Positions 2,636 to 10,829 of a DNA stretch of 64,000 nt are shown piece by piece. The translations under genes were made by a program, and so were the position numbers. The notes under the pieces were generated by a model, which saw nothing but the letters and a program-made list of their open reading frames with translations, was not told the origin of the DNA and did no database searches. The DNA lies in contig MVQI01000041.1 in assembly GCA_002067795.1 (NCBI GenBank), positions 1 to 64,000 on the forward strand, in the 5' to 3' direction. Position 1 is the first letter of the stretch; every line of letters starts with the position of its first letter. The stretch comes from Methanosaeta sp. PtaB.Bin039. Lineage in GTDB: Archaea; Halobacteriota; Methanosarcinia; Methanotrichales; Methanotrichaceae.

Positions 2636-3414
2636 AGGTCACGATGATAGGATCTGGCAGGGAATAAAGGGTGAGTTAGGTCGACGTTTACCGAAAATGC
2701 GATCAAGGTTACGCGATGAAGGTTCTGCATCGATGAAAACGCTCGTATTGGCGTGCCTCCGAGAGTGGATGGCGGTATCGAGGTGCAACTGGGCCTTTTC
2801 TCCTCGGTTCTTAGCCTGAATCTCGGAGGCCAGGCGCAAAAAATCCCTCGGTTATGCCAAAATCACAGACGGGCAGAGCTGGGGCTGTAAAATCTTCTGG
2901 ACAGTGGTGGTGTTTATTTGCGCCGCAATCTCCAGCGGCAGGTATCTCGAATAAATGAGACTATTTTATCGGCCTCTCACCTCTGGCTTGTGCTCTTTGC
3001 CTCCGCTCATCGTGCTTCTCCTTTCTCTCCTTCGTCTTTGCTGTATTCTCTGTCCTCTTCTTGAACGGATTGATCATGACTCTCCCAGCCCGAGTATCAC
3101 TATTGATAGTATACATCATCTACTCGTTTATCTAATTTCTCGAAAAAGGCCATGTGTCCGTATCTGTTTGACCGCTGAGGCGTCCAGGATATTGCATGAG
3201 CTGGACGGACCTAGGGCGGACATTCGAAGCGAAGGGCAGCAGGCTGGCCTTAGAGGAAATCTCGGCAGAAATCCCGAAACATTCTTATCATGATTGTGAG
3301 CATTAAACGACATGTTTCTGCAGCCAGACATGTCTGAAGCTCAATAATGCCTCACAAAGAACCAGGTGGTGGATATTATCGGGCATCTGGCATCTCCGTC
3401 GGGCGGTGACGATC
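2636..3414. other. gene-poor interval with no supported gene
   Basis: About 780 bases lie between the beta-helix gene and the Cache-domain gene. The open frames here (for example 2487-2819 and 2955-3293 on the plus strand) have no recognisable motif and an amino-acid composition typical of chance frames. Bases 3000-3066 are pyrimidine-rich. The stretch could be decayed sequence from a lost gene, but I see no family signature to name one. Confidence 0.5.
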
Positions 3415-4278
3415 ATGAAAGATGAAGCGAGGAGTTTGGGGAAGGGTATCTCAATAACCCTCTTGGTCCTGTTTGGAGCAACCTGCATATTCCCGGCATC
3501 ATGCGAAGATATGTCCTTTGGGCCGCAGACGACTGGTGGAGAGCCTTTATGGGGGCTTCTCACAGCAGCAGATGCTGCCAGTTCGAACCTGTCTGCAATC
3601 GAAGCCGCCCTTGTAGATGCCAGCATTGCTCTATCGGGATCTGGCATCGATGGGCCCGCTGCTGTGGGGATTCTCTCAAACCTGACCATGGCAGACGCTT
3701 CTGTGATTGATTGCATAACAATCGATGCCAATGGCACGGTTCGTGAGGTCCAGCCAGCGTCGTTTGAAGCAATTAAAGGCGTGAACTTGAAGCGGCAAAG
3801 GCATGTGAACGATACGATCAATTCCAGGCTGTATTCGGGATTCCACTTCATAATGTCGGTTGAAGGTCTGAATGCCATCGATTCGGAGATGCCGGTGTTC
3901 GACAAAGATGGGACCTTTATAGGCACGGTCAGCTTTATGTTCAATAGCAGCGATTTCTTCGAGAGGATCTTGGCGCCGTATCAGCCTGCCGGTGATTCCA
4001 AGATATGGGTGATGACGGCTGATGATGGGACAATCCTGTACGAGACCGATCCTTCCCAGCAGTTTCTCAACAAGAGCTCTGACGTGTACCAGCCCTATCC
4101 CTCCATTCTGGAACTGATTAATAGGATTAGCTCTGAGAGGACCGGCTATGGAACCTATGAGTTCCTGGACCAGTCCCACCAGGAGACGATACATAATGGG
4201 TGCTACTGGACCACAATTCCCAATATGGGTACGGAGATCAGGATTCTGCTCACTCTAGAGCTTGATCCAAAGATCTGA
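3415..4278 (+). CDS. exported solo Cache (PDC-like) sensor-domain protein
   Basis: The 287-residue product has an N-terminal hydrophobic segment (about residues 10-28) followed by an alpha/beta region resembling extracellular Cache/PDC ligand-binding domains. Features include a long N-terminal helix, a mid-domain block P-V-F-D-K-D-G-T-F-I-G-T-V, and a late W-V-M-T-A-D-D-G-T-I-L-Y-E strand. Cache domains normally sense small molecules for kinases or chemoreceptors, but no output domain is present, so it would act as a binding protein or a partner for another receptor. The ATG at 3415 is chosen because GGGCGG lies about 8 bases upstream; an in-frame GTG occurs at 3406. It appears to be a single-gene unit. 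Confidence 0.7.
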   Translation: MKDEARSLGKGISITLLVLFGATCIFPASCEDMSFGPQTTGGEPLWGLLTAADAASSNLSAIEAALVDASIALSGSGIDGPAAVGILSNLTMADASVIDCITIDANGTVREVQPASFEAIKGVNLKRQRHVNDTINSRLYSGFHFIMSVEGLNAIDSEMPVFDKDGTFIGTVSFMFNSSDFFERILAPYQPAGDSKIWVMTADDGTILYETDPSQQFLNKSSDVYQPYPSILELINRISSERTGYGTYEFLDQSHQETIHNGCYWTTIPNMGTEIRILLTLELDPKI

Positions 4279-5829: not shown

Positions 5830-7542
5830 TTAGTGATCGAAGTGCAGCAGCAGCTCGGTCATCCCGTCTTTTGAAGAGAACGCAACCCTGTCGGCATACC
5901 GGCCTATCATATAGGCAGCCAGATGCAATGGGGCTGTACGATCTTCTGCCATGGAGGCCGGCGGCATACGGGGGATCTCAAACGGCTCCCCCCGGTAAGA
6001 AGCCCTTGCATCGAGGTTGAACTCGTCGAACTGCACATCCACCTCCACTTTATCCTTGATCCCAATGATCTCGGCTGCCTCCAGCATCTCGTTTAAGGCA
6101 GCGATGGCGTTGTAGATCACTTCCTTTCTGGCTCCCCAGGCCCCGCCCTGCTTCTCCATGAATTCGAAGATCGCCTGGGACGAGTCTACCCCCGGCTGCA
6201 GCTGCAGCTTAGCCCGCTTGCTCACCCCCAGACGGAACAGCAGGTTTAGGGATACAGCGCATATGGTGGCCACGGCCAGAGATGAGGAGAATAGAGATGA
6301 CCATGTGGGCGGCAGCCCGGCGTAAAGGCCGGGAATGAAGTCGAAGGAGAGCCCGAATATCATGGAAAATCCGATCACGAACGTCTTTCGGGCGTCGATC
6401 ATCCTGGAGGTGATGATCTGTATCCCGGCCAGGATCATGAAGCAGACGGCGAATATCAGGGACGCGCCCATCACCGGGGTGGGCATTATAACAAATATCG
6501 CCGCCAGCTGAGGGAAGAACGCCAGGAGCATGAGCAGGCCTCCGGCTGCATAGCCGATCCGGCGCGATGTGGCCCCAGTGGCAATGGCAAGCCCGATATT
6601 GCTGGAGGAGACCGACTGGCCCAGGGCTCCCAGAAGCCCTGAGGCGATATTTCCGGCACCGCAGGCCAGCAACCCCTTGCTTATCGATATCATGTCTATG
6701 CGCTTCCAGTCGGCATCGTTTATCTTCTGGCAGGTGGTCAGGTCTCCCATGGTCTTAAGTGCGGAGGAGAGGGCTGCTACCAGGAAAGGCATGGCCAGGG
6801 CCAGGTCGAAAGAGATGCCGAACCGCCCAACCTGGGGGACTCGGAAAGGCGGGGAACTGGTGATTACCTCGATGTTCTCCATGCTCAACAGCCCGCATCC
6901 AAACGAGACGGCGTAGCCTATTGCCATCCCAATCAACAGCGAATAGAGCCGCAGCTTGCCGCGTCCCCACACGTTGAATGCGGCCATGGCCATGAGGGTG
7001 ATCACTGCAACAAGCAGGGATAGTGGATGTATCGCGGGATGAGCCTGATCAACTCCGAAGAACTTGGGGATAGCGATTGGGATGACCTCCACCCCCACCA
7101 TCAGCACAACAGTGCCGGTCACCTCGGGCGGGAAGAACTTGCGCATTCGGGGAACCAGGCGGGAGAACAGCACCTCGAACAGACCGGCAAAAGCAGTCAT
7201 GCCGAATATAAGGGCTAGGCCACCGGCTTTTCCTGCGAGCAGGGATGCGGGCACGAATGCCGGGCCGTTTACCAGCGGACAGAGGTATCCGGAGCCTATA
7301 GGCCCCCGGTTGACCGACTGGATCATGGTCGCAAATCCGGTGGCCAGCATGGCCATGCAGATCAGGTTCTGGGCGTCGTTTGGGGTTCCGCCTATCTCCC
7401 CTACGATGACCACGGGGAAGATGAAGGCGATCGATAAGATGAAAATATGCTGAAGGCCCAGAATCAGGGTGGTGGCCAGGGACGGCTGGTCCTCAATGCC
7501 ATAGATCAGGTTGGATGGTTTTCTGGCCATGCGGGTCATCAT
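5830..7542 (-). CDS. NCS2-family (xanthine/uracil) permease with degenerate RsbW-like C-terminal domain
   Basis: Residues about 25-440 form a polytopic membrane protein with NCS2 hallmarks, including the Q-x-V-x-R-G-P-I-G substrate region and G-x-L-G-A-L-G-Q-S-V-S. It is probably a proton symporter for a nucleobase or related compound. Residues about 450-570 are cytoplasmic and follow the layout of RsbW-like GHKL kinases: an N-box-like helix A-A-L-N-E-M-L-E-A-A, paired strands, then A-A-Y-M-I-G-R-Y-A-D-R-V and a terminal strand. The metal-binding Asn of the N-box and the DxGxG loop are missing, so ATP binding is doubtful. It is the last gene of a STAS-phosphatase-permease operon, which suggests transport is gated by the STAS protein. 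Confidence 0.85.
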   Translation of the reverse strand: MMTRMARKPSNLIYGIEDQPSLATTLILGLQHIFILSIAFIFPVVIVGEIGGTPNDAQNLICMAMLATGFATMIQSVNRGPIGSGYLCPLVNGPAFVPASLLAGKAGGLALIFGMTAFAGLFEVLFSRLVPRMRKFFPPEVTGTVVLMVGVEVIPIAIPKFFGVDQAHPAIHPLSLLVAVITLMAMAAFNVWGRGKLRLYSLLIGMAIGYAVSFGCGLLSMENIEVITSSPPFRVPQVGRFGISFDLALAMPFLVAALSSALKTMGDLTTCQKINDADWKRIDMISISKGLLACGAGNIASGLLGALGQSVSSSNIGLAIATGATSRRIGYAAGGLLMLLAFFPQLAAIFVIMPTPVMGASLIFAVCFMILAGIQIITSRMIDARKTFVIGFSMIFGLSFDFIPGLYAGLPPTWSSLFSSSLAVATICAVSLNLLFRLGVSKRAKLQLQPGVDSSQAIFEFMEKQGGAWGARKEVIYNAIAALNEMLEAAEIIGIKDKVEVDVQFDEFNLDARASYRGEPFEIPRMPPASMAEDRTAPLHLAAYMIGRYADRVAFSSKDGMTELLLHFDH

Positions 7543-7672
7543 CTGCCCATAAGCTCTGTCACTGGGCGATTTTCGGTATCCTCATCTCGGCTTTCTTCCT
7601 ATTTGTTTATTATTCTTTCAATCTCCGACAGCTGGGCAGGGTTTTCGGGCATGGGCTCTTTTTGGCAGCATC

Positions 7673-9061
7673 TCAGGCTTGGTCTGCCTTAACCACCAGG
7701 ATGGTCAGGTCATCGAACTGAGGCTGGCCTGAGCAGAAGGCCTGCCAGTCCGAGATGATCCCATCCAGGATCTCGGCTGCTGGGAGATGGGCATACGACG
7801 CGATTGATCTGCGGACCCGATCTGAGCCGTACTGCTCGCCGCCGCCGTTCAAAGCCTCGGAAAGCCCGTCGGTGTACAGCACCAGGGCATCGCCTGTCAG
7901 GAGCCTTGTATTCCTCTCCTCGTACCGTCCTGCCAGAGAGAGGCCTAGGGCGATTCCCGTAACCTCAAGGCTCACCACCTCCCTTGAGCCTGACCGAAAC
8001 AGAAGGGAATGCGGATGTCCTGCGTTCGCATACCTCAGATGCCCGTCGCTCTCCAGTGATCCCAGGAACATGGTCAGAAACATCCCCGCTCCAGCCTCAG
8101 GCTCTATGAGCCGGTTGGCCAGCGCCAGGGCATCGGCCGGGCCTGATGCCTGGCTTATGCATGCCCTGACCACCGTTCGGCTATGCGCCATGAAGATCGC
8201 GGCCGGAACGCCTTTTCCAGCCGTATCAGCAATGGCGAGCCCCAGGGATTCCTGTCCCGGATGTGCTTCAGGCTGCCCGATCTCCCATGGCGGGAAGTCA
8301 TAGAAATCCCCTCCCACCTCCAGGGCCGGTCGGATGGCCGCAGCCATCGAAAATCCTGGGATTTCGGGCAGGCTTTTCGGTATGAAGCCCATCTGGATCT
8401 CCGCAGCCACCTCCCTCTCTGCCCTTTCCCTCTCCAGATCCGCGAGGTAGCGGTCTCGCTCGGCCTGCGTGCGTCGCTCTGCCAGATAGTTGGAGAGGAC
8501 AATGGCGAATACGAGCATCCCTGCCCCGTTGGCGAGGACCATCGGCCCCATGCTGGCCTCTACAGCCTGCATGGCCAATGGGAAGGGCCTTGCAAGGATC
8601 AGGGTCAGAACCATGTGTAACACCTCGAAAAGCACGGCCAGACCCACGAGGGTGGGCACCCCCAAAAACCGCCTGGTCCTCATCTGTATCAGCCCTCCGA
8701 GCAGGCCTGCAGCCAGCGTGGCGACCGCGCATGGACCGGCAGTGAATCCACCCTGGCTCAGGCGGAAAGCCGCGCCGATCAGGCCGGCCCCGGTCCCCAC
8801 CACAGGCCCGCAGAACAGCCCACCCGCCAGCGGCCCCAGATCTCGCACGCTTGCAATGGCCTGCATCATCCTGATCCCCATCAGGCTTCCGTAGATGGAG
8901 ACCGCCCCGAAGAATAGGGCGAGGACCAGCAGGCTCTTTTTGCTTGGCGTCTTATCCAGGGTCTCTGCGAAGTAACGGCTGCGGATGATCAGGTAGGCAG
9001 ATAGGACAATCACACAGGCCGCTTGAAGCAGCTCCAGATAGCTGTCGATATCGATTGACAT
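7673..9061 (-). CDS. membrane PP2C-type phosphatase, LytS-like 5TM sensor plus SpoIIE domain
   Basis: Residues 1-195 contain about six hydrophobic segments, with the R-D-L-G-P-L-A-G-G-L and G-P-V-V-G-T-G-A-G-L-I-G pattern of 5TM-LYT receptor domains. A short coiled coil (about 196-222) leads into a SpoIIE/RsbU phosphatase domain: G-G-D-F-Y-D-F (250-256), I-A-D-T-A-G-K-G-V-P-A-A near 281-292, N-A-G-H-P and L-Y-T-D-G-L-S-E-A. The metal-binding Asp residues are present, so it should be active. Enzymes of this type dephosphorylate STAS antagonists; the upstream gene encodes one, 44 bases away. What the membrane part senses is unknown. Confidence 0.9.
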   Translation of the reverse strand: MSIDIDSYLELLQAACVIVLSAYLIIRSRYFAETLDKTPSKKSLLVLALFFGAVSIYGSLMGIRMMQAIASVRDLGPLAGGLFCGPVVGTGAGLIGAAFRLSQGGFTAGPCAVATLAAGLLGGLIQMRTRRFLGVPTLVGLAVLFEVLHMVLTLILARPFPLAMQAVEASMGPMVLANGAGMLVFAIVLSNYLAERRTQAERDRYLADLERERAEREVAAEIQMGFIPKSLPEIPGFSMAAAIRPALEVGGDFYDFPPWEIGQPEAHPGQESLGLAIADTAGKGVPAAIFMAHSRTVVRACISQASGPADALALANRLIEPEAGAGMFLTMFLGSLESDGHLRYANAGHPHSLLFRSGSREVVSLEVTGIALGLSLAGRYEERNTRLLTGDALVLYTDGLSEALNGGGEQYGSDRVRRSIASYAHLPAAEILDGIISDWQAFCSGQPQFDDLTILVVKADQA

Positions 9062-9105
9062 ATCCGGTTTGAGCCGTTATCCTTCTGCAGATCGGGTGTT
9101 TATAT

Positions 9106-9447
9106 CTACGTGTGAAGCAGTGCCGTGATGGCCTCTTTTCGATCCGGGTGGATTGTGAACAGCCCTGCAATGCCGGTCGCCTCCATGACCTCCCGGACCA
9201 TCGGCTGCAGGCAGGTCAGGCAGATCTCGCAACGAAGCGGCCTTAGGCTCTTCTGAGCTGCCATGAGCACCCGCAGCCCGGAGCTGCTGATGTAATCCAC
9301 TCCTTTTAGGTCAAGCACCATGGTGGCGGCCTTCTCCTTGATAATCCCGCAGATGGCCGAATCAAGCTCCTTGGCGGTGACTGCGTCGATGCGGCCGGTT
9401 ACAGCCAATACTGGTATTCCCTGGATCGATGTATTGATGATCTCCAA
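9106..9447 (-). CDS. STAS-domain anti-sigma-factor-antagonist-like protein
   Basis: The 113 residues form a single STAS domain: N-terminal strand I-P-V-L-A-V-T-G-R-I-D, the central D-Y-I-S-S-S-G-L-R-V-L loop, and a C-terminal T-G-I-A-G-L-F-T-I-H strand-helix. Ser55, in the S-S-G position, aligns with the serine that RsbW-like kinases phosphorylate and PP2C enzymes dephosphorylate. It is the first gene of the operon with the SpoIIE-type phosphatase and the permease. Archaea have no sigma factors, so its target must differ from the bacterial paradigm; the RsbW-like tail of the permease is the obvious candidate. Confidence 0.9.
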   Translation of the reverse strand: MEIINTSIQGIPVLAVTGRIDAVTAKELDSAICGIIKEKAATMVLDLKGVDYISSSGLRVLMAAQKSLRPLRCEICLTCLQPMVREVMEATGIAGLFTIHPDRKEAITALLHT

Positions 9448-9696: not shown

Positions 9697-10548
9697 TCAC
9701 AAAAGCCCGCGTATCGTCATATAGTGTGCCTTTTGCTTCCCCTCGGTGCTCTGCTCTTCTGCCAGGTCGGTCTGGTCCTGGACAGAGGTCGTGTCCTGCG
9801 GCGTCATCTCGATTGCCTGGGCTGCCGCCTGCATCTGGACCTCGTCTGCCTGTGGCGGCGCTGTCTCGTTCGCCGACCAAAAGATCATCTCCCCGATCTC
9901 AGCATAATGGACCTTGAGCGAATCCCCCTCGATTACGAAGCTGTTGGCGTTCTCGAGAGCTGAGAAGAACCTCCTCTCCATGTCCACAACCGCTTTGGGG
10001 CAGGTCTTCTTGGTGACCTCGGGAGTTGATATGGAGATCTTGTTTCCGTCGGTTGCCATGGCGGCTGAGTATCTGTCGCATCCTGCCAGGCCGCTGATCG
10101 TGCCCTCGTTCAGGTCGAAATCCGCGCTGAAACGCCCGTCATCCATCGGCGTGCTCTGCTCTCCGAGCCGTATTGAAACAAGTTTCCAGGTGCGGCCGTC
10201 CAGTCCTGAGGCCGGGGTCTCCAACTTGTCCAGGACCTCAACCAAGGTCCATTGAGGCGCCCGAGAATCGCCCGAGGCGTCGCCTATCCCTTCTTCTTCT
10301 TTGATCTTCAGGGTGTACTGAAAGCCTGGCTGAAAAGCAAACCTTTCAATAACCCCTTGAAATAGGGTCCAGTTGCCTTCCGAATCCTCCCTCACCATCA
10401 GGCACTTCTGCATGCCGTCTCCGGTGCAGTCCACGAGGCTCGGCCCCACGTAAACGGTCTTCTCAACGGCCAATCCGGCACATGCCAGCACCAGAAGGGC
10501 TATTACTGCTGTCTTTGCAGGCAAAAGGAATCCTCTATATCTCCCCAT
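9697..10548 (-). CDS. exported DUF4377/META-domain (HslJ-like) protein
   Basis: The start is placed at the ATG at 10548, giving 283 residues that begin with a basic n-region and a clear signal peptide (about 10-28). Residues about 30-105 resemble DUF4377 (E-x-x-x-W-x-L-F-x-x-x-I-x-x-F-x-x-x-P-G). Residues about 125-230 form a META domain with W-K-L-V-S-I, G-L-A-G-C-D-R-Y-S-A and the T-K-K-T-C motif. META proteins are exported and linked to stress or heat resistance in bacteria; biochemical activity is unknown. The acidic, Gln-rich tail (about 240-283) looks disordered. It faces away from the gene at 10830 and shares the intergenic region with it. Confidence 0.75.
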   Translation of the reverse strand: MGRYRGFLLPAKTAVIALLVLACAGLAVEKTVYVGPSLVDCTGDGMQKCLMVREDSEGNWTLFQGVIERFAFQPGFQYTLKIKEEEGIGDASGDSRAPQWTLVEVLDKLETPASGLDGRTWKLVSIRLGEQSTPMDDGRFSADFDLNEGTISGLAGCDRYSAAMATDGNKISISTPEVTKKTCPKAVVDMERRFFSALENANSFVIEGDSLKVHYAEIGEMIFWSANETAPPQADEVQMQAAAQAIEMTPQDTTSVQDQTDLAEEQSTEGKQKAHYMTIRGLL

Positions 10549-10829
10549 GATTACCCCTCGACATTGACATCTCAAGGCTTCATTAACGTCCAATAGGTTG
10601 AATGTCCAAGTATAAGTAACTATTCCGGGGACTATTTGGCCATTTCTGTCCCCTTTATCAGCTTCTTTGAAATGGTCTCTTTGATATATTGCTGTCAGAA
10701 ATATGAGCGTTGATATTTCACGCATCTCTTTGCCCAGGCCCCAGCCACCTCCCTTAGAAAAGGGGCCTTCGACGGCCGACATTTTCCACTGCCGCGACTT
10801 ATAAATCCCACAAGGCCACATATTTCAAA

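Follow-up and report, generated by a model that had tools for sequence, protein, structure and literature searches.

What might a partner-switching module control in a methanogen? To our knowledge, archaea, methanogens included, have no sigma factors, and the question is raised by three genes in a 64,000-nucleotide stretch of DNA from Methanosaeta sp. PtaB.Bin039 (contig MVQI01000041.1, positions 1 to 64,000; the whole stretch is called the window below). Read along the minus strand, they encode a STAS-only protein of the RsbV/SpoIIAA type, a membrane SpoIIE-type phosphatase and an NCS2-fold permease with a C-terminal extension, which we call the tail. The tail has the predicted fold of the kinase RsbW without its ATP-binding residues, and permeases carrying it are linked to partner-switching genes in bacteria as well as in archaea. 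We lean towards a partner-switching module whose output is the transporter, in which the unphosphorylated STAS protein would dock on the tail and set the activity of the permease.

The STAS Protein and the Phosphatase

The STAS gene (9106..9447, minus strand; 113 residues, TTG start; PF01740, 75 bits) is followed, on the same strand, by the phosphatase gene (7673..9061; PF07694, 130 bits; PF07228, 150 bits) and the permease gene (5830..7542; 570 residues; PF00860, Xan_ur_permease, 184 bits), with intergenic gaps of 44 and 130 bp. Open reading frames and Pfam matches bear out the gene content given in an earlier note on this DNA, namely a STAS protein, a phosphatase with a LytS-like sensor of five transmembrane helices and an NCS2 permease. 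The serine that it had picked out in the STAS loop (D51-Y-I-S54-S55-S56-G) also holds: Ser55 (codon 9283-9285, minus strand), the predicted phospho-acceptor, lines up with the serine that is phosphorylated in RsbV/SpoIIAA, and this position is Ser in 42 of the 43 STAS proteins linked to tailed permeases. In the same set, Asp21 is invariant (43/43) and position 52 is Tyr (37) or Phe (6). By motif alignment, D21, Y52 and S55 correspond to Asp23, Tyr53 and Ser56 of RsbV; in the RsbV-RsbW crystal structure, RsbW Glu49 contacts the phosphorylated residue Ser56, and Asp23 and Tyr53 are interfacial too (PMC7340262). PDB relatives of the STAS protein include SpoIIAA and RsfB.

The phosphatase joins a 5TM-5TMR_LYT sensor (residues 30-191) to a SpoIIE PP2C domain (residues 271-459). 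Its metal-binding motifs GGDFYD, ADTAGKG, TDG and FDDLT are all found in the sequence, and its PDB relatives include Rv1364c and a serine phosphatase.

The Permease Tail: A Predicted RsbW Fold Without the ATP-Binding Residues

The tail (permease residues 438-570; 5833..6231, minus strand) is about 130 residues long and, taken in isolation, matches no family in Pfam or NCBIfam. With an alignment of 27 tails gathered from the same archaeal family and phylum, AlphaFold returned a confident model of the tail alone (predicted local distance difference test, pLDDT, 93.4; predicted template modelling score, pTM, 0.87). When this model was compared to the PDB with Foldseek, all but two of the 23 best matches, ranked down to E 1e-3, were RsbW/SpoIIAB-family proteins, the two being chains of the Leptospira protein LvrC (9qih); among the matches were RsbV/RsbW (6m36, 6m37), SpoIIAB (1til, 1th8, 1tid, 1thn, 1l0o), UsfX (8ih8), an anti-sigma-F complex (8jzt) and Rv1364c (3ke6). 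Profile comparison points the same way: HHalign aligned the tail with 19 true RsbW kinases from this archaeal family over 127 columns, that is, the whole domain (E 1.5e-6, probability 90), with a weaker score for a smaller tail alignment (E 1.6e-4, probability 50). A profile search of PDB sequences placed RsbW 6m36 first, but weakly (E 0.17), and HATPase_c_2 was matched directly by 2 of the 27 tail homologues (best E 1.5e-4). The tail is thus, in its predicted structure, a Bergerat (GHKL) fold of the RsbW class. In a model of the whole permease (pLDDT 87, pTM 0.78), the last helix spans residues 421-437 and the tail follows immediately; R437 and G439 are invariant across 38 aligned permeases.

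The earlier note had called the tail RsbW-like, which is right for the fold; it does not extend to kinase function. Among 99 tailed permeases, the N-box Glu is largely retained (Glu 81, Gln 15), a single one has the N-box Asn, and the G1-box Asp position is Tyr in 95 and never Asp, the next Gly being kept in 94; the GGxG glycine lid is absent from the tail alignments. The HHalign N-box register is one residue off the motif register used for these counts, and the Asn is lost under both. The same N-box, G1-box and lid motifs are almost always intact in 24 RsbW kinases adjoining tailed permeases. With these ATP-binding residues lost, the tail looks like a docking pseudo-kinase and not like the kinase of the module, and the tail as an active kinase was rejected. 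The retained N-box residue, Glu485 in the window (codon 6088-6090, minus strand), corresponds by motif alignment to RsbW Glu49.

Linkage to the Module and Distribution

The order STAS-phosphatase-permease recurs in genus g8 of the same family; in genera g7 and g11, also of this family, a true RsbW kinase (PF13581, 64-102 bits) sits between phosphatase and permease, and in one genome of the family the permease is inverted. A gene for a STAS protein, a SpoIIE phosphatase and/or an RsbW kinase lies within 3 kb of 49 of the 99 tailed permeases (30 of the 61 with full flanks) and of none of 20 tail-less NCS2 genes, 13 of which share a bacterial genome with a tailed permease (Fisher p 7e-6, a value that ignores kinship). 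Since gene order is conserved in relatives and linkage is enriched over the tail-less control, the association is not due to chance, and a module with a transporter as its apparent target, as first proposed, gains support from both tail fold and linkage: a tail fold that is not GHKL-like, or a gene order without conservation, would have spoken against that proposal, and neither was found. At least 8 arrangements of module and tailed permease were seen, the permease being the constant element, and a parsimony count on the permease tree gave at least 16 changes of linkage. The sensors of the phosphatases vary: 5TM-LYT here, dCache in Armatimonadota, a response-receiver in Bradyrhizobium. No natural STAS-permease fusion was flagged among the tailed permeases.

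We scanned one genome per species (84,980 species) for the tail, which gave 135 encoding stretches; 80 of these were retained. The bacterial hosts belong to Thermodesulfobacteriota, Myxococcota, Bacillota, Armatimonadota, Pseudomonadota, Bacteroidota, Cloacimonadota, Nitrospirota and other phyla, and methanogens are likewise among the hosts; many of them are metagenome bins, whose individual taxon labels may be wrong. An archaea-only system was accordingly rejected. Nor is the module an archaeal replacement for sigma control, since numerous phyla of bacteria show this linkage too.

Where would the kinase come from? By eye, the 130-bp gap between phosphatase and permease (7543-7672) holds no kinase or kinase remnant. 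The sole HATPase_c_2 domain in the window's genome belongs to a CHASE4-HAMP-PAS-SpoIIE-HATPase_c_2 protein on another contig (C20), followed by two STAS genes; as the only RsbW-type kinase domain found in the genome, it is likely the kinase of this module. A kinase gene is also part of the set at many bacterial loci, and some linked kinases even match the tail profile.

Genome Co-Occurrence, Covariation and Origin

Across 394 genomes of the phylum, SpoIIE is encoded in 17 of the 17 with a full-length tailed permease, in 115 overall and in 6 of the 51 with only tail-less NCS2 genes; as the species are related, genome-level p values make the association look stronger than it is. Where a tailed permease has no linked module, the archaeal genomes checked encode STAS and SpoIIE elsewhere.

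We compared simple pairwise distances over 40 permease-STAS pairs. Distances of the tail correlate with those of the STAS protein at r 0.77, versus 0.64 for the membrane part; once the rest of the permease is taken into account, the tail keeps a partial correlation of 0.56, and seven overlapping membrane segments of equal length give values between -0.40 and 0.31. None of 500 permutations reached the tail value given the membrane part. This covariation is supportive only, since the pairs are few and not independent and the distances simple.

On a FastTree phylogeny, the permeases of the window and of genera g4 and g8 cluster with those of Syntrophaceae, Smithellaceae and other deltaproteobacteria (support 100), and those of g7 and g11 stand apart, with other archaea. 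Transfer between syntrophic bacteria and methanogens is likely on this topology; the long branches of the tree leave other details of origin uncertain.

The Permease Core and Its Substrate

In NCBIfam, the permease comes nearest to pbuX and ncs2, under both cut-offs, and its PDB relatives are UapA, SVCT1 and UraA. The substrate-binding Glu of transmembrane helix 8 (TM8), which we take to be E356 in UapA and E241 in UraA, is replaced by Lys263 in the window's permease (codon 6754..6756, minus strand; alignment with UapA). Counts at this position are K 87, R 4, Q 3, N 3, I 1, D 1 and E 0 in the 99 tailed permeases and E 13, K 6 and N 1 in the 20 tail-less NCS2 proteins, the six with K being archaeal with an apparently truncated tail. 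In TM10, the position of UapA Gln408 and UraA Glu290 is Ser314 here and mostly Ser in tailed permeases. A triple substrate-site mutant of UraA (E241A/H245A/E290A) serves as a negative control in transport assays (PMC11362169). With the TM8 Glu replaced by Lys or Arg in 91 of the 99, annotation as a xanthine/uracil permease probably misjudges the substrate, which is probably something other than a classical nucleobase, and the nucleobase-type uptake proposed earlier becomes doubtful. From the charge alone, we would guess at an anion.

Proposed Mechanism and Alternative Explanations

In the mechanism that we propose, a separate RsbW-type kinase would put a phosphate on Ser55 of the STAS protein, to be removed again by the membrane SpoIIE phosphatase under the direction of its 5TM sensor. 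The dephosphorylated STAS protein would then dock on the RsbW-fold tail as RsbV does on RsbW. Because its ATP-binding residues are lost, the tail should be unable to phosphorylate and release the STAS protein; it would instead read the state of the STAS protein and relay this state to the transport core. The signal would travel along the last transmembrane helix, a short route for a conformational change since the tail begins immediately after it. Such gating might activate or inhibit transport. Two predictions follow: only the unphosphorylated STAS protein should bind to the tail, and ATP should not bind to it.

Identical parts and contacts would be expected of a transceptor, in which sensing or transport of a substrate by the permease would make the tail bind or release the STAS protein or the kinase, so that the module would govern an output of another kind. 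The presence of two tailed permeases with one module at some loci (L188, L204) would fit such an arrangement, as would the fact that partner-switching targets are usually soluble (review PMC8256260). Each module, however, has its own sensor on the phosphatase, and the sampled neighbours of tailed permeases, heterogeneous in Pfam content, include no recurrent metabolic or other output gene beyond the module; nor is there a sigma factor among these neighbours (whole genomes were not searched for sigma factors), and the archaeon would have none to release. We hold the transceptor to be unlikely. The tail might also pair with the kinase, RsbW being a dimer formed via helix 1 and strand 1 (PMC7340262), and so tether or inhibit it at the membrane without binding STAS at all. 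Tail and kinase are indeed homologous, to the point that the tail profile recognizes some linked kinases, but the window's locus, like many other linked ones, lacks a kinase gene in the vicinity, and it is the STAS protein that tail distances track; this makes such pairing quite improbable. A tail kept as a structural or oligomerisation leftover of an old fusion, next to a module that regulates something unrelated, would account for the many tailed permeases without module neighbours, and conserved tail motifs need not form a STAS surface; it leaves aside that the association recurs in many gene orders and distant phyla, never with the sampled tail-less NCS2 genes, and genome co-occurrence and distance covariation count against such a leftover as well. 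We regard this last explanation as very improbable.

One has to keep in mind the points that weigh against docking of the STAS protein on the tail as the control of transport. The window's operon has no active RsbW/SpoIIAB kinase gene; around about half of the 99 tailed permeases, the nearest 3 kb hold no gene of the module; the best-conserved tail motifs (WGAR, FDExNLD, H-F-D-H) lie outside the known RsbW surface for STAS; and the covariation rests on few, mutually related pairs.

Relation to Known Systems

The locus shares with RsbU-RsbV-RsbW and SpoIIE-SpoIIAA-SpoIIAB a SpoIIE-type phosphatase, a phospho-serine STAS protein and an RsbW-fold partner, together with a kinase gene at many linked loci; unlike them, it has no sigma factor in view and carries an extra RsbW-fold domain, without ATP-binding residues, on a transporter. 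An output other than a sigma factor has a precedent in SiaA-SiaB-SiaC-SiaD of Pseudomonas, where partner switching controls a diguanylate cyclase; the Sia target, however, has no fused kinase-fold domain. The SiaB-SiaC structure (6kko) was among the Foldseek results of the tail, and the SiaA model among the NCBIfam results. Documented uses of partner switching comprise sigma factors, stress responses, biofilm control and type III secretion; BtrU-BtrV-BtrW, in type III secretion, and SypE-SypA, in biofilm control, likewise use a STAS switch for outputs beyond classical sigma release, but with neither a transporter nor a fused pseudo-kinase (PMC8256260). SLC26/SulP carriers are also 7+7-fold transporters with a C-terminal cytoplasmic domain from the sigma-regulation toolkit; there, STAS itself is fused, whereas here the type of domain that binds STAS is fused and STAS is separate. 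The NCS2/SLC23 carriers PbuX, UraA and UapA have the same core fold and PF00860 profile, but not the replacements in TM8 and TM10 or the C-terminal tail.

A literature search found no partner-switching-regulated transporter and no RsbW-tailed NCS2 permease, subscription papers being mostly outside its coverage, so that absence is unproven; archaeal SpoIIE domains are mentioned only in passing (PMC5847659). Whether we are dealing with an undescribed and widespread signalling class of bacteria and archaea, in which partner switching acts on a transporter through a pseudo-RsbW tail and the carrier, lacking the nucleobase-binding acidic residue, probably moves an anion, seems to us evenly balanced. 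If so, the same switch would directly control transport in methanogens as well as in roughly a dozen phyla of bacteria, and at least some archaeal STAS/SpoIIE modules would have found their role. The tailed permeases would also define a transporter subfamily that resembles xanthine/uracil permeases and probably has a different substrate.

Variant Loci and Neighbouring Genes

Several loci depart from the usual permease. In family f18, six loci (L092-L095, L097, L098) encode NCS2 permeases of 529-540 residues with Lys at the TM8 position and an apparently truncated, diverged tail; one f18 genome (G254) has no STAS or SpoIIE. The group offers a natural case of tail loss for comparison. Two tailed permeases stand in tandem in family f25 (L089, L090, L091), possibly as a specialised pair, the TM8 Lys position being Gln in one and Asn, with a shortened tail, in the other. 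Tandem tailed permeases also lie downstream of SpoIIE-kinase-STAS in Betaproteobacteria and Rokubacteria (L188, L193, L204), where they possibly form a heterodimeric carrier governed by a single switch. The permease frame is split into two open reading frames in two genomes (G028, second copy, and G009; L043, L042), either because the copies are decaying or through errors of assembly.

Just upstream of the STAS gene, the window encodes a DUF4377 and META protein (9697-10821, minus strand), which does not recur near other tailed permeases. On the other side of the operon lies a gene (3406-4278, plus strand) for a sensor-like protein with PF22309 (HK-GC-Chemotax_sensor), a weak dCache_1 match and no output domain; related open reading frames are found near tailed permeases at four further loci (L145, L184, L192, L260), and the protein might be an extracytoplasmic partner of the tailed-permease system.

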